DNA from: a virus
DNA length: 24,422 bases
Reading direction: 5' to 3' (one strand)
Virus record (IMG/VR): IMGVR_UViG_3300017951_000125
Coordinates: 1-24,422 of that record
Each line of letters starts with the position of its first letter. The first letter of the stretch is position 1. Positions 2 through 24,422 of the stretch are shown piece after piece. The notes under the pieces are model-generated. The model was not told where the DNA came from. It did not search any database and saw only the letters and a list, made by a program, of their open reading frames with translations. Position numbers and translations under genes: made by a program.

Positions 2-3000
2 AAAGATGAGGACGGGCGAACGCTTGCCAGCGTTGACCTAGTGCATCAGACACTCCGCACGATTGAATACTTCAAGCCCAATATCTGGGCAGTAGAGAAT
101 CCCGTTGGTCGCATCGAAAAGATGGGCGGTCTTCCTCCCTGGCGCTTATCGTTTGACCCCTTCCACTTCGGTGAAGATTACACAAAGAAGACTTTGCAAT
201 GGGGCCGATTTAACGCGGACCTACCTATTGCTCCTACAGAGCCAACAATGGGCTCTAAGATGCACAGCCAGTACGGCGGCAAGTCACTCGCAACAAAGAA
301 TGCCAGAAGCGAAACTCCAGAGGGTTTTGCCTATGCGTTTTTTGAGGCCAACAATGCAGTAGACAACCCGATTATGGCCGTGGGGAACAAGTACGACATG
401 ATGGATGCGCGAGTTATCCAGAACGCGCTTGATGAGGGGTTCACTGAGCAGGACATCTCTGAGGTTGTTGACGATCCTTACTATATGGAGCAGGACTTCG
501 AGGCCGCAGATCGCGCCCTGGCTAACGCTATTAACGAGCCTACAGCCGAAGGTGTTGACGTTGACGAAGGATTTACGCTCCAGTCATACACAGAGCAGGA
601 TATCCAGAACATTGAGTCCCGCGATATTGAGGCTCTTGAGAGAGAGGCGCAGATAGACAGAGAGCGCGAAAACTTCACCCTTGATTCGCGCAGGGAGTCT
701 ATTGCTGGAACTAACGACCCACTTCAAAGGCCCCAAGGCACCGACTTGTTTGGATTCTCGGATGTGCAGCAAGAGGCTCGCCGTGATTATGGGTTCGAAG
801 AAGAGCGCACTCGCCTCACGTCTGTCCTTAATGGAAAGGAAGATCAGGAGGTTGACAGACTTCTCAGAGACGCCGGACTCCAGGTCTCTGGTAGCAAGCA
901 GGAGAAGATTGAGCGCATAGTATCCAGCCTTGAAGCTAAGTTTGTAGTAGAGAGCGCAGGCTTTGAAAGCCAACAGCAGATTGAAGAGGCCGTGCGTAAT
1001 GGCGACATCGACGCTAGGGATATGGCGCGGTGGGCATCTGGCGTATCTACGTCACAGCAAAGCGTATCAACCCCTCAGTCTGCTACAGAGATGACTGGAT
1101 CATCCGCCAATATTGGGTTAGTTGTTCAATCCCTTTCGCGCATTACCGGCAGATCCATACCTTACCGCACAGACTCTGAGCAGGAAGCTTTTGAGTCGAG
1201 CCCAGAGCAGGTTCAGGCGAGAGACCGCCTTGAGGTGGAGCGCTCTCAGGCGCAATCCACAAAACAGAGTCAAGATGATTGGTTTGAGTCTAATCGAGTA
1301 GGGTTCGGCCTATGGTGGTCTGAGGCCTCTGAGCAGATGAGGGCTGATGTCCTCAGCAAGGCTAATGCTTTAGGTGATACAGAGCGAACAGCAAGCCGCA
1401 GAATTAAAGCCGCAAGGCCTTCAGCGCTTCCCAATGCCGCCACAAGAGCAATCATTGAATGGGGCGCTCGTACAGGCACAAGCTTTACTGACGGTGAGAT
1501 GAGTCAGAGCGATGACCCAGCGCTATTCCAGCGAGGGCGGGGCGCCACTAGAACTGCTATTGGAGACGAAAAATTCAATGCGGTCATTGATCGGGTCGTC
1601 GGTCGGGACGGGAATGCCCGTAATCGAGTAGACGTGCGGTCTTCGTCTAGTGAGCTTCCTCAAGAAATCATTGAGTCTGCTAGGCAGCAGGGCGTAGATC
1701 CAGCTTCTATTAACGCGGTTTACCATAGGGGCAGAGTTTATCTGGTCAAGGATAAGCTTACCACAGAGTCGCAAGTGGAGGAGGCGCTCCTGCACGAGGG
1801 AACTCACGGCGGCATAGACGCGATGTACAAAGACGAGGGTGTTAAGAAGGCACTCAACCGTATGTGGGCGGCTATGGGCGGCAGAAAGGGCTTTGATAAG
1901 CTATCACGCGAGCTTGGCATTGAGGAAAACATACGGCCATACCTAGAGGGATCTAGTCTCGATGAAGACGTGCGGAATGCCGTATTGGTCAATGAGATGC
2001 TGGCATATACCGGCCAGCAGGGGTCGAAGAAGCTGCGCCAGCGCACTCGCGAAGTTATTGGCGCCATCCGAGAGTGGTTGCGTAACAACACATTCCTGAG
2101 ACTCTCTCGCATGAGGGCCAGCGATATTTCGTTGATTGCCAAGAGAGCAAGAGACAACTTCATAAACAACCGCGCTAATGCAGAATCTGGAGCGCCGTCA
2201 TTTATTGTTGGCGAGCGAGAGCGAGCGGCGGTTGAGGACGGTCTTTACTCCAACGCAGAGCAAGTGCTTCTCGATGAAGGCGGCAAGATATTTAAGGCCT
2301 CCAATAAGAATCCAGAAGCTCGCGTACTGGGACCGCAGATTTATTCATTCCTCAAGGCTCGAGGGCTCAAGTCTGACGAGGATCGCTACACTGGCCTCGA
2401 AGAGTTTCTTACAAGTGATCCAAAGCAACGGTTTACCCGCGATGAGGTGATTCAGCATCTGCGAGAAGAGGCGGTCATGCTTGAGGAGGTTTATAGCAGC
2501 CGAGAATCAGGGGCTATTACGGAAGAGGATCTTGAGTGGGGCGATTCAGTGCCAGACACGAATCAAGCCAACTACGAATACCTTTGGGAGGATATGGCAG
2601 ATAACCTGGCTAATGGGTATTACGATAATTACGGTACTGGAAAAGCCGTAGAAAAAGCGATATTTGACGATTCTGACAGAGCCATCGACATTGCCGTTGG
2701 CGCTTTGGACCTGAGCGATGAGCAACAATCACGCTTGAGCGACAGGTACACCTCAGATGACAAGATGCGTTATCTCCTGCAAGAGTTCGGCAATGACGCC
2801 GTATACAGCGCCGTTAAGGAGGAGATGTACGACGAGATCGACGAGAATATGTGGCAGATAGCCGAAGATATATATCTCGAAAATCCATACACAAACACCG
2901 AATTAGACACCGAGCTTGCGAGTGTAAACTACGTCACCATTTCTGGTAACGACGAAATAGGTTACAGCACAAGAATTGGGTATGCAGCCAGATCCCCTGA

Positions 3001-6000
3001 TGTGCTGGAAGACGGGGTTTACTCTCTCGAAGAGGCGAAAGTTCAGGCTCAGCAGTATCTTCTAGAGCAAGGCTATCTTGAGTTTGAAGATGGAGAGACA
3101 GAGGTATATCAATACTTCAACGATCTGCAAAACGAGACCTGGGATCAGTACCGCGAAATTCGCATGACGACTGATGGCAAGTGGGGCACTTACCCTCGCT
3201 ACAGAGGCCACTTCCCTGAAGACAATGTTCTTTACAACGTCATTTCCACGGATAGAAAAACCGACCTTGGGGATACGTTTGTCATCGAAGAGATGCAGTC
3301 TGACTGGCACTCTCAGATAAGAAAGGCAGGACGCACTCAAGATGCAGAACGTCTCGCGCAAGTAAGAAGAGATCGGAACGAAGCCGATGACAAGGAAAGG
3401 GCGCTTTTCGATGAGCGGAGCGAGATCGAAGAGGATATACAAGAGCCTTCTATTGAAGAGTTTAAAATAATTCGAAACGCATTCAGGAGGATTGACCCCT
3501 ACCTGACAGAGTTCGGCAGAGAGGCTCTGTTCAATGAAAGCACACCTGGCTCCACTGCGATAACAGCAGACATACTTGATGTTGATAAAGTGCGTTCAGG
3601 CGCCAGCGGCTACGAGAATTTCGATGACTCCTATGTAATTCAGGATTTCTTACGGAACAACCGAACAGGTCTAAAAGATTACGGTGAAGCTGCACAACTT
3701 GTTGCTGGTTATGGAATTGAAGATAAAGCTCGAGCGCTTTCTGATAAAACTTATGAGTACGATGTCGCATCAGCAAGAAGAGAAGCGCTAAGAAAAGAGG
3801 AGAGAAACGAAGAGGCCGCTCCCCCTGACTCTCCATTCCGCGATGACCGCTACCTTGAGCTTGCTGTAAAGCGAAGCATCATTACCGCTATTGAGGAAGG
3901 CAAGACGGCGCTCGCTTGGTCTCAGGCTGATCGTGTGCAGGCTCGTTGGTCTGAGAGATTTGATTACGAAGCGCAGTACAACCGCAAGATACCTAAGATC
4001 GTTCAGAAGATTACAGGGCAAAAGCCTGTTCGCCTCGATGTAAACGGCAATGAAATGTTCACTGTGTTTGATGACAACGGTGAATTTTGGGCGGTGCCGC
4101 TCACCGACGAGCTGAAGCAAAAGGTTACTTTTGAAGGGCTTCCAATGTACCAGCTTGACCCAGAAGCCGGTCGCGTCTACCCGAAGATCCCTGTAGAAGA
4201 ATCAATGGCTGACTTCTACATTCGGAAGTTGCAGGATAAGTTTGTTCCAATAAAGCGTGTTATTCAGTCGATCGAAGAGCAGACTGGTCGTCCGATTGCT
4301 AGGCAGCAGAATACATATCGGGTCGAAGAGGCCTTCTACAACAAAACAGAAGAGGACTTAAGGCAGGTAGAAATAAGGCTTGTCAAACCGCTTATTAACA
4401 CCCTTGATTCAACAAACATATCAATCGCGCAGTTAGATGAGTACGTTTACGCTCGGCACGCCGAAGAGCGCAACAGAGAGATGGCTGCGATAAACCCCGC
4501 ATTGCCTGACGGCGGATCGGGCATGATGAATGCTGAAGCAAAAGAAATACTTGATAAGGTGGCAAAGTCTGGAAAGCAATCAGATTACGATAACCTAGCG
4601 AATCAAGTCTACGCGATCATAGAGCTCACTCTGGAGTTGCAGCTTGCTGGCGGCTTGATATCTGAAGAGACCAATAGCTCTTGGCGTGATGGATACGACT
4701 ACTATGTGCCGCTTAAAGGCTTTGCTGTCGATGAGAAAGATAGCAACGGGAACGCAATACCAAGAACTGGGAAAGGGTTTCAGGTTACAGGGCCGGAAAG
4801 TTTCCGCGCTATGGGCAGATCGTCACGAGCGGCAAGCCCAACAATTCAAGCTATTTCGGACTTAACAGAAAAGATAATTAGAAATCGAAAGAACGAGGTT
4901 GGCCAGTCATTCCTGGCTTTGGTCGAGCAATACCCTGACCCAGAGGTATGGCAGGTATTTACAGCGCAAAATCCTGATACAAAACGGCGATTTAAGAATG
5001 GCAAGGTAGACGCTGGCTCCCGAATGACTGAGCTTGAGATGGCGCAAAGCGATGATTACTTTGGGGTCAAGCGCGACGGCGTTGGTTACTACATCAAGAT
5101 TGCAGACAAGCGCATTATAAACGCGATGAAGAACGTCGGACCCGATCAGTTAGATGGTGTCACTAAATATATTCGGCCGATAACTCGATATCTAGCCTCG
5201 ATCAACACAGCCTATAACCCTCAGTTTGCCTTTACCAACTTCGCAAGGGATATTCAGACTGCGGTTATGAATATTGCTGCGGAAGGCTCTATGGAGGGCG
5301 GACTGATTGAGGGAGAAAAGATTGCTGCAAAGGCCGCTGCTAACGTCAAAAAAGCAATTTTTGCGATTGAGTCCGCAATCAGAGAGGATGCTGTCAACGA
5401 TGACAAAGATCCAGAGGCCTCTGAATATCGCAGATATTATCAAGAGTTTTTGAATGATGGCGCGAAGACAGGATATTTCGATTCTCCAGATGTGGACAAA
5501 ATAGCCAAGAACATAGAGTCTCAACTGAGAAGCTCGCAGCCAGGCACTCTCAACAAGTTCAGAAGGGGCGCTGTCCAGATTGGAAAGTTTGTTGAAAGGT
5601 GGAACTCTGCCATCGAAAACGGCGTCCGGCTTTCCACTTATGTAGAGGCAAGGAAAGCGGGTGTTGATCGAGACTTGGCTGCATCAATGGCAAAAAACCT
5701 AACCGTCAACTTTAACCGTAAGGGTGAGGTCGGCAACAAGTTGAACGCTTGGTATATGTTCTTTAACCCAGCAGTACAGGGAACCGCCAATTTCTTACGA
5801 ACGCTGAGTCCAATACAAGTCAACAGCCAAGGAAATCTAAGGCTTCAGAAGAAAATGAATCTGGCACAAAAGATTGCCGGTGGAATTACTGCCTCAACTA
5901 TTGGTTATGCCTCTTTTATGAGGGAGTTTGGTGGTGAGGATGATGACGGCGAAGCATATTGGGACAAGATTCCTTCTTCGATCAGGGAAAGGAATCTTGT

Positions 6001-6967
6001 TATCCTAAAGCCAGGCTCAACAAAGTTAGACTCGCAAGGAAACCTTGATGAAGGGTCATACTACAAGTGGCCGCTACCTTACGGATACAACTTCTTCTAC
6101 AACATTGGAGACGCAATTGAAGGAGCGCTTAAGGGGTCTCGTAGAAGAAAAGAAAAAATACTCGGAGACCTAGTTGCAAGCTTCTTAACTTCGTTTGCCC
6201 CACTGAGCGCTCGTAGTGGCGAAAATTTATCGGAAGATATTTTGCTTACCGGATCGCCAAGCTTCTTAGTACCCGTAACGGAGATTGCTATTAACCAAAA
6301 CTTTTTTGGCAACAAGATTTACCCTGAGAACTTCCCTGCGGGAGCCCAGAAGGCAGACGCCTATCTTTACTACCCATCAACAAAAGAGGGCTTTAAGCAG
6401 GTAGCTCAGTTTTTGAATGACGTTATTGGCGGCGGATCTCAGTACAGATCTGGCGAGTTTATGGGCATTTCTACAGACGTTAGCCCAGAAACATTAGAGG
6501 CGGTTATTGAGTATGCTGGTGGCGGCTTGTTGCGGACTGCCACTGGAGCAGTTGATACGGTAGCCAGGGCGGGAACAGGGCGAAAGCTTGAGCTTTCTAA
6601 TATCCCCTTTGCTCGTATCTTTGTTGGTGCGGATAGCTCAGATTACTCAGATATAGACACCTTCTATAAGCGGCGACAAGAAATCATTAATGCTCGCAAG
6701 GAGTACAAGGATTCTATGACTCCTGAAGAGAGAGATGCTAGTGATTTAGGGTTTAAAGGAGTACGCACTCTTTATCCAAGAATGAACAACACGTATAACC
6801 AGCTCAAGCGAATCAGGGATAGGGAGATGAGTATAAGGGATCGCGATGACATTAGCCCTGCCGAGAAAGAGGAGATGCTAGACGATCTGCGAGAGCAAAA
6901 AGATGACTATGTTGATCGGTTCAATCTGTACTATGACCAACATATCGAGCGAATGTCGGTCCAATAA
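2..6967 (+). CDS. Giant polyvalent protein, fused to a C5-methyltransferase-like domain (5' end outside window)
   Basis: This is a partial gene: the frame is open from base 2, so the GTG at 41 is not the real start. Residue numbers below count from that GTG. Residues 1-105 resemble the C-terminal part of a C5-cytosine methyltransferase (WAVENPVGR at ~16-24, YTKKTLQWGRF at ~47-57, and a C-terminal block ending TPEGFAYAFFEAN). Next come a long charged, Gln-rich linker, a SAP-like DNA-binding segment (~262-300), and a zincin-type motif HEGTH (H585, E586, H589). The EEMQSDWH (~1083) and ELAVKRSI (~1265) blocks are typical of polyvalent proteins, and the C-terminal third (YNPQFAFTNFARDIQ ~1725, MFFNPAVQGT ~1906) resembles the LPD38-type module. 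The end (~2206-2308) is charged and helical. Polyvalent proteins are thought to enter the host with phage DNA and counter defences or prepare the template. That role is inferred from the family. MTase motifs I and IV lie outside the window, so activity cannot be judged. Confidence 0.85.
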   Translation, partial: KDEDGRTLASVDLVHQTLRTIEYFKPNIWAVENPVGRIEKMGGLPPWRLSFDPFHFGEDYTKKTLQWGRFNADLPIAPTEPTMGSKMHSQYGGKSLATKNARSETPEGFAYAFFEANNAVDNPIMAVGNKYDMMDARVIQNALDEGFTEQDISEVVDDPYYMEQDFEAADRALANAINEPTAEGVDVDEGFTLQSYTEQDIQNIESRDIEALEREAQIDRERENFTLDSRRESIAGTNDPLQRPQGTDLFGFSDVQQEARRDYGFEEERTRLTSVLNGKEDQEVDRLLRDAGLQVSGSKQEKIERIVSSLEAKFVVESAGFESQQQIEEAVRNGDIDARDMARWASGVSTSQQSVSTPQSATEMTGSSANIGLVVQSLSRITGRSIPYRTDSEQEAFESSPEQVQARDRLEVERSQAQSTKQSQDDWFESNRVGFGLWWSEASEQMRADVLSKANALGDTERTASRRIKAARPSALPNAATRAIIEWGARTGTSFTDGEMSQSDDPALFQRGRGATRTAIGDEKFNAVIDRVVGRDGNARNRVDVRSSSSELPQEIIESARQQGVDPASINAVYHRGRVYLVKDKLTTESQVEEALLHEGTHGGIDAMYKDEGVKKALNRMWAAMGGRKGFDKLSRELGIEENIRPYLEGSSLDEDVRNAVLVNEMLAYTGQQGSKKLRQRTREVIGAIREWLRNNTFLRLSRMRASDISLIAKRARDNFINNRANAESGAPSFIVGERERAAVEDGLYSNAEQVLLDEGGKIFKASNKNPEARVLGPQIYSFLKARGLKSDEDRYTGLEEFLTSDPKQRFTRDEVIQHLREEAVMLEEVYSSRESGAITEEDLEWGDSVPDTNQANYEYLWEDMADNLANGYYDNYGTGKAVEKAIFDDSDRAIDIAVGALDLSDEQQSRLSDRYTSDDKMRYLLQEFGNDAVYSAVKEEMYDEIDENMWQIAEDIYLENPYTNTELDTELASVNYVTISGNDEIGYSTRIGYAARSPDVLEDGVYSLEEAKVQAQQYLLEQGYLEFEDGETEVYQYFNDLQNETWDQYREIRMTTDGKWGTYPRYRGHFPEDNVLYNVISTDRKTDLGDTFVIEEMQSDWHSQIRKAGRTQDAERLAQVRRDRNEADDKERALFDERSEIEEDIQEPSIEEFKIIRNAFRRIDPYLTEFGREALFNESTPGSTAITADILDVDKVRSGASGYENFDDSYVIQDFLRNNRTGLKDYGEAAQLVAGYGIEDKARALSDKTYEYDVASARREALRKEERNEEAAPPDSPFRDDRYLELAVKRSIITAIEEGKTALAWSQADRVQARWSERFDYEAQYNRKIPKIVQKITGQKPVRLDVNGNEMFTVFDDNGEFWAVPLTDELKQKVTFEGLPMYQLDPEAGRVYPKIPVEESMADFYIRKLQDKFVPIKRVIQSIEEQTGRPIARQQNTYRVEEAFYNKTEEDLRQVEIRLVKPLINTLDSTNISIAQLDEYVYARHAEERNREMAAINPALPDGGSGMMNAEAKEILDKVAKSGKQSDYDNLANQVYAIIELTLELQLAGGLISEETNSSWRDGYDYYVPLKGFAVDEKDSNGNAIPRTGKGFQVTGPESFRAMGRSSRAASPTIQAISDLTEKIIRNRKNEVGQSFLALVEQYPDPEVWQVFTAQNPDTKRRFKNGKVDAGSRMTELEMAQSDDYFGVKRDGVGYYIKIADKRIINAMKNVGPDQLDGVTKYIRPITRYLASINTAYNPQFAFTNFARDIQTAVMNIAAEGSMEGGLIEGEKIAAKAAANVKKAIFAIESAIREDAVNDDKDPEASEYRRYYQEFLNDGAKTGYFDSPDVDKIAKNIESQLRSSQPGTLNKFRRGAVQIGKFVERWNSAIENGVRLSTYVEARKAGVDRDLAASMAKNLTVNFNRKGEVGNKLNAWYMFFNPAVQGTANFLRTLSPIQVNSQGNLRLQKKMNLAQKIAGGITASTIGYASFMREFGGEDDDGEAYWDKIPSSIRERNLVILKPGSTKLDSQGNLDEGSYYKWPLPYGYNFFYNIGDAIEGALKGSRRRKEKILGDLVASFLTSFAPLSARSGENLSEDILLTGSPSFLVPVTEIAINQNFFGNKIYPENFPAGAQKADAYLYYPSTKEGFKQVAQFLNDVIGGGSQYRSGEFMGISTDVSPETLEAVIEYAGGGLLRTATGAVDTVARAGTGRKLELSNIPFARIFVGADSSDYSDIDTFYKRRQEIINARKEYKDSMTPEERDASDLGFKGVRTLYPRMNNTYNQLKRIRDREMSIRDRDDISPAEKEEMLDDLREQKDDYVDRFNLYYDQHIERMSVQ

Positions 6968-7128
6968 TCTGGTCCAACTTTTATGATTTGCATTGTCCGT
7001 GGCGAAAGCGGAAGTGAGTAGCTACGGGCATTGCAGTGCACTACAGGGCACCCGAACGCAGGTTCGAGTCCTGTCGGGCGCTCCATTTAAATCAATGAAT
7101 TGTGGGGTCTTGGTCCAACTCCGGTCCA
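6958..7128. repeat. Paired GGTCCA repeats flanking the attP core (candidate integrase arm sites)
   Basis: GGTCCA occurs at 6958, 6971, 7112 and 7123. That is two direct copies left of the tRNA-like core (13 bp apart) and two right of it (11 bp apart). The inner pair is extended to ten identical bases, TGGTCCAACT, at 6970-6979 and 7111-7120. Spacing near one helical turn and symmetric placement are what arm-type integrase sites show in lambda-type attP regions. The outer copies lie inside the 3' ends of the adjoining genes. Binding is inferred. Confidence 0.5.
7057..7085 (+). other. attP: Presumed attP core: 3' end of a tRNA-Arg-like gene
   Basis: The segment folds as the 3' end of a tRNA: T-stem GCAGG/CCTGT around a TTCGAGT loop, then a seven-base acceptor strand CGGGCGC, a T discriminator and CCA (7083-7085). 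The matching 5' half (an acceptor strand GCGCCCG about 75 bases upstream, a D-arm and an anticodon arm) is absent, so this is not a functional tRNA gene. The acceptor and T-arm resemble proteobacterial tRNA-Arg genes whose 5' acceptor is GCGCCCG. It lies between the polyvalent gene and the integrase operon, the usual place for an attP that rebuilds the tRNA 3' end on integration. The exact core limits cannot be set without the host attB. Confidence 0.8.
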
Positions 7129-7349
7129 TCTTCGGCTTCTACTTCGAAGCCAAAGCCTCGATCTTCACAGCCTTGATGCCAGGCTGGCTCCTCGTCAATA
7201 AGGAGCCAGTTTAATTCGTCGTCCGTCAAATTTTTGGCGGCTATCTCCAGTGGAGTTCCACTCATCCAGTCGTAGAGCTGAGCTGAGTTTATTGGTATTT
7301 CCCTTCCCTCATAGTCTCCGCACTTCTGGCAAAACCTTACTATCTTCAC
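7092..7349 (-). CDS. Small acidic Cys-containing protein downstream of integrase
   Basis: An 85-residue protein starting at a GTG that overlaps the integrase stop (GTGA), with an AAGGGGG Shine-Dalgarno upstream. The N-terminus carries a zinc-ribbon-like knuckle (FCQKCG at residues 6-11) and there is one later Cys, too few for an obvious complete zinc site. The C-terminal half is acidic and rich in Trp, Glu and Asp. I do not recognise the family. It is the last gene of the leftward operon, and its 3' end runs into the right arm of attP. In the integrated state it would therefore lie next to one att junction. Confidence 0.7.
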   Translation of the reverse strand: MKIVRFCQKCGDYEGREIPINSAQLYDWMSGTPLEIAAKNLTDDELNWLLIDEEPAWHQGCEDRGFGFEVEAEDGPELDQDPTIH

Positions 7350-8371
7350 GCTATCCCCCTTAGTATGTTCTTTTGCTCCCTATCCTTAACGCCGTCGATC
7401 CACTCTGCGTAAACATTTAAAAACATCTGAATCGAGTGCCCCAGTTGTCGAGCTGCAAACGCTGGCTCCACTCCAGCCATAAGCATTTCGGATGCTCTTG
7501 TATGCCTACAAGTGTATGGCCTCCGGTAAGTAATGCGAGCTTTTTTTAGCGCACTGTGCCACGCCCTTCTAAACTTATCGTCATCCCTGTGGTGACTTCC
7601 TTTTTGCGTTTGGAATATAAACCCTCCCCTAAACCTATTTGCACTCCCTGAAAGCTCCTTGTGAAGCCCAGGAGACACGAACACTGATCTGGCGGAGTAA
7701 GTCTTCAGGCTGCCAATTCGTCGCCTAACAATGGATCTGGTGACGTTTATGGTATCGCCGGACCAATCCTCCCACTTCAAACCAAGGATCTCTCCTGTCC
7801 TCATGCCTGTATCAAACGCAATCAAATAGAACAGGTGGCAGTCTCCGCTCAATCGAGCAAGTATCTTTTCCTTTTCTTGGGGGGTGAACCTAATGACCGG
7901 CGGCTTCTGGTGACGGCGAATCTTTACTGCGTCTACAGGGTTGACGTCAGCCAGCTCCTCTTCGATTGCAAGCTCAAAAACTCCCCTTAACGGTATAAGG
8001 GCATTCCGCTTTGTCTTGCCGGTAACGTCATAGTCTTTAAGTATCTGCCGTATAACCGCAGGCTTGATCGTGTGAATGGGTTTTGTTGCGAGCCCTGGCA
8101 TCCACACATTGTTTAAGTCGTTCCGATAGACAATGTAGGTTGAATGCTTGATGTCTACTTGATTCAGGTATTGCTGGGCTACCTCACCAAAGGTGGCGGA
8201 TTGAGGTGAGCTGCCAGACTTTAGCTGGTCAACCCACTCCTCTCTTTCTTTTATGGCCTTCCTCAGACCAGCTTGAGTATCGGGGTAGTCGAGCGTGAGG
8301 GTGTGCGCTTTACCTTGGACTGTGACTCGTAGTTGCCATTTGTCTCGCCAGCGCCTGATGCCCTTAGCCAC
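7346..8371 (-). CDS. int: Tyrosine-family site-specific integrase
   Basis: This 341-residue tyrosine recombinase would join phage attP to the host tRNA site. Residues 1-50 (KGIRRWRDKWQLRVTVQGK) look like an arm-DNA-binding domain. Residues ~58-150 form the SAM-like core-binding domain, and ~160-335 the catalytic domain. Visible catalytic residues are R191 (RTGEILGLKW), K223 (SLKTYS), R289 in YTCRHT (with Y in place of the usual first His of HxxR, a common phage variant), H312 in LGHS, and the nucleophile Y321 (NVYAEW). The start is a GTG preceded by GGGAG. The N-terminal 109 bases overlap the excisionase gene, but the N-terminal motif supports this start. The attP lies just beyond its 3' side. 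Confidence 0.95.
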   Translation of the reverse strand: MAKGIRRWRDKWQLRVTVQGKAHTLTLDYPDTQAGLRKAIKEREEWVDQLKSGSSPQSATFGEVAQQYLNQVDIKHSTYIVYRNDLNNVWMPGLATKPIHTIKPAVIRQILKDYDVTGKTKRNALIPLRGVFELAIEEELADVNPVDAVKIRRHQKPPVIRFTPQEKEKILARLSGDCHLFYLIAFDTGMRTGEILGLKWEDWSGDTINVTRSIVRRRIGSLKTYSARSVFVSPGLHKELSGSANRFRGGFIFQTQKGSHHRDDDKFRRAWHSALKKARITYRRPYTCRHTRASEMLMAGVEPAFAARQLGHSIQMFLNVYAEWIDGVKDREQKNILRGIA

Positions 8372-22124: not shown

Positions 22125-23666
22125 ATGGCGGCTCCGAGCTACACCACAGACCTAACGTCGATTATCGACCAGAACACGGGCAACACGAACAACTTTGCTC
22201 TTGTCACTGATGGCGGTGGCGGCCAGAACGCGCTAACAGCGGTTGATACGGATGACTTTATCGAAGGCACGAGTTGCGCGTCACGAAACCCGTTCTCTAG
22301 TTCAACGCGGGGAATACTTTACGACAACGGCGCTACGACTGTTGCTTCAGGTGATGCGGTATTTATCTGGACCAAGGCCGATGTAGCGCAGGCTATTGAC
22401 TCAAAGGCCAATGGTGGCATTCAGTTAATCATCGGCAACAACGCAAACACCAAGTCGCGGTGGTATGTAGACGGGAATGACACGTACCAGATCGGCGGTT
22501 GGAAGTGCTACCCGATTGACCCAACGGTAACGCCCAGTACGGGGTCGCACAGCTCCACAGCAATATTTGGCTGTATGTGGAACGTACCCGCATCAGGTCC
22601 GACAAAGGGCCAGCCATTTAAGCTGGATGCGATACGCCACGGTCGGTCATTAATTATTACCGATGGCGATCTAGCTAACGGCTACTCGACTTTCTCGGGA
22701 GCGGCGACCTTTGACAATGACACAACCCGACAGTGGGGTCTGTTACGTTTTAGTAACGGCGTTTATACGTTTCAAGGTTTATTACAGTTTGGATCTACCG
22801 GCGGGAACAGTGTTGACTTCAGAGACAGCAACAAGGCTTGCTTCGTAGCAGAGACCGACTTTGTTGGTAGCACGTTTAATGGCGTAGAGGTGCAGAATGC
22901 GGCCAGCCGAGTAGACTGGACTGGCATCTCTATCAATGCGATGGGCACTGTAAGCCGAGGCTACTTCGAGGCTGTCGATAACGCAGATATCAATTTTGAT
23001 TCCTGCGCGTTTCGGGATATGGATACGTTCATATTTCAATCGAATAGCACGATCGACGATACGACGTTTGCTCGATGCAATCAGGTGACGCTAGGTGGCG
23101 CCACAATGATGGGTTGCATATTTAGCAACAGCACAGCGGCAACAGCCCTAAACGCAGGTAGCTCCGTAACGTCGCTATCGAACACGCAGTTTATTAGCTC
23201 TGGTACAGGACACGGGTTGGAAATTACTGGCGGGACAAGCCACACCCTTACCGGATTGACGTTTACAGACTATGCGGCTTCTAACGGCTCTACGGGCAAC
23301 GAAGCTCTTTTTGTCAATATTGGATCTGGGACGGTAAACATCACTGCCGACTCAGCGCTTAGTTATAGGACTGCTGGCGCAACGGTGAATCTTACTGTTG
23401 GCCAGAAGACTCTTACGATCTCTAACGTGATTGCCGGCTCAGATGTTGTTATTAAGTCCGCAGGAACCACAACAAAACTGCAAGACGATCAAGATATTGC
23501 AGGAACATCAACAACTTACAGCTACACATTTAGTGCTGGGACGTTTGTTGACATAGCGGTATATGCGGAAGGTTATGTTCCGTTTTATGTAAACAATTTT
23601 GAGTTAGGTCCAGACGGAGGTTCCATTCAGGTATCTCAGTCTGTTGACCGCAATTACGTGCCTTAA
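22125..23666 (+). CDS. Tail-fibre or tailspike-like structural protein
   Basis: A 513-residue Gly/Ser/Thr/Asn-rich protein. Residues ~1-210 form a conserved-looking N-terminal region (SYTTDLTSIIDQNTGNTNNF, SCASRNPFSSSTRGILYDNG). Residues ~210-420 have the repeating short-strand pattern of a right-handed beta helix (GLLQFGSTGGNSVDFRDSN, FRDMDTFIFQSNSTIDDTTF, CIFSNSTAATALNAGSS). A beta domain ends the protein. No signal peptide. It is probably an adhesin or fibre-associated protein of the virion. The N-terminus is like proteins (from memory) common in marine phage sequences. Specific receptor or enzyme activity cannot be read. Confidence 0.7.
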   Translation: MAAPSYTTDLTSIIDQNTGNTNNFALVTDGGGGQNALTAVDTDDFIEGTSCASRNPFSSSTRGILYDNGATTVASGDAVFIWTKADVAQAIDSKANGGIQLIIGNNANTKSRWYVDGNDTYQIGGWKCYPIDPTVTPSTGSHSSTAIFGCMWNVPASGPTKGQPFKLDAIRHGRSLIITDGDLANGYSTFSGAATFDNDTTRQWGLLRFSNGVYTFQGLLQFGSTGGNSVDFRDSNKACFVAETDFVGSTFNGVEVQNAASRVDWTGISINAMGTVSRGYFEAVDNADINFDSCAFRDMDTFIFQSNSTIDDTTFARCNQVTLGGATMMGCIFSNSTAATALNAGSSVTSLSNTQFISSGTGHGLEITGGTSHTLTGLTFTDYAASNGSTGNEALFVNIGSGTVNITADSALSYRTAGATVNLTVGQKTLTISNVIAGSDVVIKSAGTTTKLQDDQDIAGTSTTYSYTFSAGTFVDIAVYAEGYVPFYVNNFELGPDGGSIQVSQSVDRNYVP

Positions 23667-23679
23667 AGGGGAATAGGAA

Positions 23680-24422
23680 ATGGCAAAAATTATTGATGGT
23701 GACGATTTAGTTGTCAGTTCATCAGCAGGCAATCTTGGTGTCGATGGAAACATCTGGATTGACACAACTGCTCGCACATTTGAGCTAGATGTTTTTGGAT
23801 CGCTTACGTCTCTCAAAGAGGGCGTCACCTTACAGGCGCTTTACTCAAAGTTTATTAAGCTTTGGGAGACATCGACATACAACCAGTTTCCTTTCCCGAT
23901 GTATGCGATTGACGCAAAGTCGGGACAGTTCGAATTCGGTTTCGACGGTTCGCGTTACAGTGATTGGGGTCCGGCCAACGATGCTACCCGTAACGCGCTA
24001 AGAGACGGCGGCTGGAACGAATATCAGGCAGGCGGAACACCAGACGTCGCAGGCACTAGCGCGACAGGTGATCTAGCACGTCGATATGTCGGCATTGTTT
24101 CTCTGGGCGAGGTAAGCGCAGGAGCTCAGCTTTACTATCAGACGGTTGATGCTGATGGCGGCCAAGTCAATTTTGTATATCAAGACGAAGCTAACCAAGC
24201 GGTTCAGGTTGTCGGTGATGCAACGGTGGATGCAACTACAACCACGTTTAACAACCAAACATTCTTTAAAGCGTTCTGTCGTGAAGCAGGTAAGACTTAC
24301 AGTGATTCGGTTCTTGCGGATACTGGTCAGACTGGTACGGGAGCCTTTACGGTCAACGTCCTGCTTTCAAACGCAGACGACCTGAAGATTGCGAACACAG
24401 ACGCGGAGATCACGGGATCAGA
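23680..24422 (+). CDS. Fibre-associated structural protein (3' end outside window)
   Basis: At least 247 residues, open to the right edge. AAGGGG and AGGA precede ATG 23680. The N-terminus (MAKIIDGDDLVVSSSAGNLG) leads into IDTTARTFELDVFG and VTLQALYSKFIKLWETSTYN, then FPFPMYAIDAKSGQFEFGFD and ATRNALRDGGWNEY. This block arrangement is, from memory, that of large fibre or baseplate-associated proteins of environmental phages. It follows the beta-helix protein by 13 bases and is likely part of the same adsorption structure. Its C-terminal domain is not visible. Confidence 0.75.
   Translation, partial: MAKIIDGDDLVVSSSAGNLGVDGNIWIDTTARTFELDVFGSLTSLKEGVTLQALYSKFIKLWETSTYNQFPFPMYAIDAKSGQFEFGFDGSRYSDWGPANDATRNALRDGGWNEYQAGGTPDVAGTSATGDLARRYVGIVSLGEVSAGAQLYYQTVDADGGQVNFVYQDEANQAVQVVGDATVDATTTTFNNQTFFKAFCREAGKTYSDSVLADTGQTGTGAFTVNVLLSNADDLKIANTDAEITGS

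Follow-up and report, generated by a model that had tools for sequence, protein, structure and literature searches.

The window, which is the whole stretch of 24,422 bases analysed here and at the same time the entire viral record, opens with what is, judged by homology, the right-hand two thirds of a giant multidomain phage protein of the packaged or injected kind, in which a cytosine-C5 DNA methyltransferase (MTase) shares one reading frame with a peptidase and with modules of the polyvalent class. The explanation that we favour, and hold to be fairly probable, is that the gene belongs to a temperate tailed phage and encodes a polyvalent protein which would be packaged in the virion, ejected, cut by a zincin and able to methylate the phage genome at C5 against restriction. 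This explanation is based on the domain content, on the same fusion in relatives, on the conservation of catalytic residues, on a predicted fold and on the late position of the gene in a related contig (G002, the contig of locus L111), while we infer the steps leading from packaging to anti-restriction.

The gene lies at 2..6967 on the + strand, the frame being free of stops from base 2 until it ends in the TAA at 6965-6967 and specifying 2321 aa; this agrees with the preliminary description of the DNA, which had reported one stop-free frame, open at the left edge, from a C5-MTase C-terminus onward. The 5' part of the gene is off the contig and thus outside the record. Residues 1-122 (2..367, +) match the phrog_757 profile 'DNA methyltransferase' at its positions 109-223 of 247 (E 6e-19), that is, in the C-terminal half only, and are 63-70% identical to complete MTases that carry the SLFD and PC motifs; in the window protein itself motif I and the PC dipeptide fall off the contig. 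The strings singled out earlier, ENP, YTKKT and TPEGFAYAFFEAN, are all present, and within 2..367 (+) ENP corresponds to motif VI, YTKKT is motif VIII-like and NARSETPEGFAYAFF motif IX-like. By sequence, then, residues 1 to about 120 form the C-terminal half of a DNA MTase of the C5 type. The MTase is followed by a conserved extension (368..541, +), as it is in most relatives and in the plasmid solo forms, and 62 of the 74 large open reading frames (ORFs) described below match this extension.

As the contig starts within the MTase, any break left of base 1 would be hidden, and the MTase and the polyvalent part could be separate genes that appear joined for this reason alone. We rejected this extremely improbable reading on the single frames of the nearest relatives, and the window itself has no stop that would part the MTase half from what follows it. 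L116 (IMGVR_UViG_3300006919_000533), the nearest relative of full length, encodes 3458 aa in one complete frame that is mostly collinear with the window protein: window residues 1-242 align with its residues 1336-1587 at 63% identity, and residues 498-2317 with 1577-3455 at 43%, the latter value, over 1916 columns, pointing to coding constraint on the window frame. The MTase of L116 includes the half that the window lacks, with SLFDLTG as motif I and LAACPCTDFASSG as motif IV. G002 shares synteny with the window, with eleven gene products that match in the same order at 32-69% identity; in G002 the replication genes are followed by TerL, portal, major head protein, tail fibre and then the polyvalent gene. 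In the maximum-likelihood tree the window MTase groups with those of L116 and L111 (support 100/97), and in both of these the frame is single on either side of the MTase or up to the contig end. Since 1335 residues in L116 and 1553 in G002 precede the position of the window's first residue, about 1335-1553 aa would be missing N-terminally from the window protein, and we estimate its full length at about 3,650-3,900 aa.

The same arrangement extends well beyond these two relatives. The window's own MTase half gave no match as a search pattern, but the MTase of Pseudomonas phage 8P succeeded as a query and led to 14 viral loci, in all of which the MTase lies within long frames; a search with an alignment brought 80 viral loci and 23 loci in bacterial genomes, and 90 MTases were left after removal of identical ones. 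The PC dipeptide, with Thr or Ser as the next residue, is present in all 90 distinct MTases, as is ENP, the form in which the window too has the motif VI glutamate (ENV/ENP), and motif I is found in nearly all aligned sequences. At least 74 of the 90 are inside ORFs >1000 aa, and in 68 of these 74 the MTase is preceded by at least 900 aa, the exceptions being four frames cut by the contig end together with L070 and L071; the remaining MTases stand alone as solo genes (about 190-450 aa). The neighbouring domains in the MTase-bearing relatives, InPase, LPD1, LPD5, LPD39, ART-PolyVal, ddrB-ParB and RadC, correspond to the standard polyvalent set. With the same MTase, PC included, inside one long frame in L116, in G002/L111 and in the 74 large ORFs, the fusion that the preliminary description had put forward is, on this comparative evidence, real. 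At each end of a 4.5-Mb contig of Polaromonas sp. CG9_12 (L070, L073) there is a long frame with this MTase, and one of the two frames starts just 12 residues before the MTase.

For the class of the MTase we rely on fold, because the search of PDB sequences with the MTase profile (alignment A2) was noisy, coiled-coil noise ranking above a weak C5-MTase hit (3g7u, E 0.18); PF00145 narrowly exceeds its cut-off in L050, L137 and 8P and comes near it in other relatives. The structure predicted for the L116 domain (pLDDT 87) has exclusively C5-MTases as its top PDB matches in Foldseek, and VIA-align superimposes it on M.HhaI with Z 13.2 over 195 residues and on DNMT3A with Z 13.4, so that in the model the domain has the C5-MTase fold. 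Motifs VIII and IX are separated by a very short recognition region of about 30 residues, and there is no clear motif X, which leaves the specificity, the activity and even the product of the enzyme uncertain. One could suppose in this context that the domain is catalytically idle, serving as a DNA-binding or base-flipping module that organises DNA in the capsid or during entry, and the minimal recognition region, the unclear motif X and the absence of the catalytic half from the window itself would all suit such a module; yet the retention of PC and ENP in 90 of 90 distinct sequences despite great divergence, and of motif I nearly always, makes it quite improbable. A C5-transferase with another target or donor, which would mark host DNA or transfer a non-methyl group in the manner of CmoX, a phage C5-carboxymethyltransferase of a published enzyme type (PMC12783734), seems to us very improbable: CmoX (8yf3) is indeed among the fold matches with Z 12.4, but this fold is common to all C5-MTases, and whereas CmoX is marked by an SPPC motif and a C-terminal Arg (PMC12783734), the corresponding motif in the MTases considered here is CPCT, TPCT, NPCT or PPCT.

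Downstream of the MTase the frame continues into a linker (572..1486, +) with an SAP-like motif, the core of which is at about 860-928. The 'SAP-like segment' of the preliminary description survives in part: the surrounding region (residues 263-503) is conserved, with 28% identity to L116 878-1126 and 39% to L111 1024-1326, but the motif is weak, being detected on the isolated segment only, by PF02037 (E 0.025; 14.7 bits against a Pfam cut-off of 23.9) and by SAP_new25 (E 0.01). Because in L116 and L111 this region precedes the MTase, whereas in the window it is downstream of it, the module has been shuffled between positions.

The following domain (1523..2236, +) contains HEGTH at residues 598-602 (1793-1807), which had been noted previously as a zincin motif, and Glu665 (1994-1996) as third ligand. 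A profile seeded from window residues 485-760 finds the domain in 36 ORFs, and the 27 copies aligned, whose mean identity is about 21%, all have the two His, the Glu between them and the downstream Glu, some with HExxxH instead of HExxH. All 27 thus conform to the definition of the polyvalent-protein MPTase in the text of Iyer et al. 2017 (PMC5512222), namely HEXXH or HEXXXH together with a Glu in the second helix. Foldseek gave no hit below 0.001 with the zincin model, and VIA-align returned mostly zincins, with Z of about 6 to lethal-factor-type proteins, IrrE, PPEP and selecase and Z 4.0 to the antirestriction protein ArdC. Since a Z of 6 alone is not decisive, we accept the domain as a real zincin-type metallopeptidase on the invariant ligands and the predicted fold together. 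The profile matches 22 of the 74 MTase giants, so that autoprocessing by this zincin would not be general to the MTase-giant architecture.

Two unnamed stretches come next, a region at 2237..3001 (+; 'mid1') common to L116, L104 and a few others, and a conserved domain at 3122..3991 (+; residues 1041-1330). Among 17 aligned sequences the latter has invariant H1070, R1085, G1090, E1097 and QSDW1099-1102, and is present in 16 other phage giants, some of them without the MTase; it looks like an enzyme, and a Pfam scan matched it to no known one. The frame ends in a module of about 920 aa (4187..6946, +) that is common to the giants of Stx-type, Vibrio and Bcep22-like phages, residues 1398-2315 matching phrog_616, a family of giants unassigned as to function (E 7e-210). 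Inside the module LPD38 (PF18857, E 2e-35; 5960..6613, +; residues 1987-2204) is the sole domain that Pfam recognises in a scan of the whole protein, and no NCBIfam model matches the protein; of the 'polyvalent modules' claimed earlier, LPD38 is accordingly firm and the rest are without a Pfam name. The C5-MTase part, the zincin and LPD38 nevertheless place several unrelated domains in one polypeptide, as expected of the polyvalent class.

That such a protein would reach the next cell within the virion is suggested by both of its ends. The N-terminus of L116 (residues 88-486) matches phrog_2206, a virion RNA polymerase (173-557 of 3406, E 3e-16), and phrog_10089, DarB-like proteins (E 5e-25), and similar N4-vRNAP/DarB-like matches occur in L104 and L137 and, weakly, in L044 and L045, though all fall in Ala/Gly-rich helical sequence and the signal may be partly compositional. 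In the N4 vRNAP the N-terminal region serves injection and the C-terminal region encapsidation (Iyer et al., PMC5512222). A T7-like single-subunit RNA polymerase domain was not found in the Pfam scan of L116, phrog_2206 being matched in its N-terminal part only. At the other end, the window C-terminal module matches JC1 gp69 over 82% of the module length (E 6e-55), a protein identified by 51 unique peptides in mass spectrometry of CsCl-purified virions (PMC9144972). The polyvalent gene adjoins the integrase region and would be the last gene of the late operon of a temperate phage, a late position among virion genes being seen in the syntenic G002 and in 8P. On this homology virion delivery of the window protein is likely, packaging being well supported on the same ground and an anti-restriction role plausible; the earlier picture of a multidomain virion protein is upheld as to the single frame with several domains and, as to the virion, at the level of a class that is packaged and of a C-terminal module shared with JC1 gp69.

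On the explanation favoured here the chain would comprise, from N to C, an N4-vRNAP-like leader, which is off the window contig and which we infer from the relatives, the C5-MTase, the zincin, the unnamed modules and the LPD38 C-terminal module, the last probably for packaging. The protein would be made late, from the last gene of the structural operon, be built into the particle and then enter the cell along with the DNA, where the zincin would probably cut the chain into working units and the MTase would methylate C5 of cytosines in the phage genome, so shielding it from restriction. C5-MTases are slow enzymes, and for this reason the few MTase copies per virion may not methylate the arriving genome before a nuclease acts. 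The MTase might instead act in the producing cell, on progeny DNA before or during packaging, such that its presence in the virion is a by-product and the next host receives DNA already modified. The slow turnover speaks for this timing, as do the position of the polyvalent gene in a late operon, the far greater amount of enzyme and time that late synthesis should provide compared with a few injected copies, and the existence of the same MTase as a solo, expressed gene on plasmids. For action in the producing cell, however, a free-standing gene would suffice, whereas this MTase is embedded together with an N4-vRNAP-like N-terminus and the C-terminal module of a virion protein. This embedding in a protein of the ejection type speaks for methylation of the arriving genome, and we regard action on progeny DNA as rather unlikely.

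Packaged antirestriction enzymes are best known from DarB of P1, the MTase of which is of the adenine class, and the widespread C5-MTase version, with 74 distinct giants, would extend packaged antirestriction to cytosine modification. The polyvalent proteins of Iyer et al. 2017 (PMC5512222) are likewise giant late-gene products with a zincin MPTase (HEXXH and downstream Glu), LPD38 and a DNA MTase, and share the N4-vRNAP/DarB-like N-terminus with the relatives of the window protein. In the main text of that paper, however, the polyvalent MTases are adenine enzymes akin to EcoKI and TaqI, 'mostly monophyletic' and in nearly every case fused to LPD36 and an SNF2 helicase, and 'cytosine' occurs in a reference title only (PMC5512222), whereas the MTases of the window and its relatives are of the cytosine-C5 class. 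Among open-access papers we found none on a C5-MTase in polyvalent or virion proteins. The suggestion that the domain set may be new is therefore to be narrowed to the C5-MTase, which we did not find described among polyvalent domains, since giants combining zincin, LPD and MTase are known from the text of the same source (PMC5512222). The class of polyvalent proteins is a known one, and the C5-MTase a real and widespread domain variant in it.

Individual phage giants show how these domains are distributed. The DarB-like proteins of Bcep22-like podoviruses (JC1 gp69, 4515 aa; Bcep22 gp75) have the same LPD38 C-terminal module and the same place at the end of the morphogenesis operon, but carry a lytic transglycosylase, an adenine-type methylase and a HepA-like helicase, with no C5-MTase reported. 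Neither the window part nor the complete L116 has a Pfam domain for an adenine MTase or an SNF2-type helicase, and membership of DarB was rejected for want of this pair in L116. Pseudomonas phage 8P_023 (5145 aa; database label 'structural protein') has a C5-MTase of the same clade at 1068-1259, with APPCTDF at 1128 and ENP at 1176, as well as HExxH domains, and its gene is in a late operon before holin, lysozyme and integrase; in contrast to the window protein it also contains LPD23 and an adenine MTase-SNF2 helicase part but gives no hit to LPD38, and in BLAST the MTase region alone aligns with the window (49% identity). Conversely, the LPD5/LPD38 giants of Stx-converting P27 (gp51) and of Vibrio phage 252E42.2 are 37-39% identical to the window over the C-terminal ~920 aa, and the N-terminal leader profile is also found in them, but the window MTase gives no match, P27 having LPD5, LPD1 and MuF-C instead. 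Of 50,697 phage records, that of 8P is the only one with this MTase clade at >50% identity, the viral metagenomes being rich in it, and with 8P as a cultivable phage the action of an injected MTase on incoming DNA is directly approachable.

The clade also occurs apart from polyvalent proteins. Plasmid solo genes annotated 'DNA cytosine methyltransferase' (pGRT1, pAtCFBP6625c, Acinetobacter plasmids) are 62-70% identical to the window MTase and phage MTases of phrog_757 30-40% identical to its MTase domain, both with the same motifs, but as free-standing genes of 190-450 aa they are unlike the embedded window MTase. Of 268 records with a match in the plasmid collection, 131 have the MTase at 60-80% identity, and those among the matches listed are mainly from Pseudomonas and Acinetobacter. 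Solo plasmid and polyvalent MTases are intermixed on the tree, well-supported branches forcing at least 5 changes of state, and because of this mixing it would appear that plasmids and phages exchange one entry-stage MTase module. The plasmid solo MTases could be leading-region antirestriction genes. A broader proposal, that a clade of tailed phages ejects a C5-MTase marking the entering genome before any expression, and that its solo form on conjugative plasmids makes it a shared arrival-stage anti-restriction module, we offer as tentative, possible but doubtful. In the two conjugative plasmids examined, pGRT1 (L157) and pAtCFBP6625c (L158), the solo MTase is close to parA/parB, and in pAtCFBP6625c genes for an SSB and for a DUF3560 protein are close by as well.

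Beyond the polyvalent gene, ARAGORN predicts a tRNA-Pro(cgg) of 93 nt at 6993-7085 (+), with a good 3' half (TTCGAGTCC arm and CGGGCGCTCCA end) and a poor 5' half; this tRNA-like stretch adjoins a tyrosine integrase gene (7346..8371, -; PF00589 E 1e-13), and is probably an attP core and not a working tRNA. At the right end two ORFs (22125-24420; 513 aa and at least 247 aa), which match neither Pfam nor PHROG, occupy the place that terminase and portal have in the syntenic G002 and are unrelated to those. The 513-aa ORF was considered as a terminase, as in G002, and rejected on a comparison that shows no similarity; it reads like a repetitive, beta-helix-like spike. G002 itself has, amid its structural genes, a tryptophan halogenase (L156:8146-9708; phrog_2928, E 1e-102).
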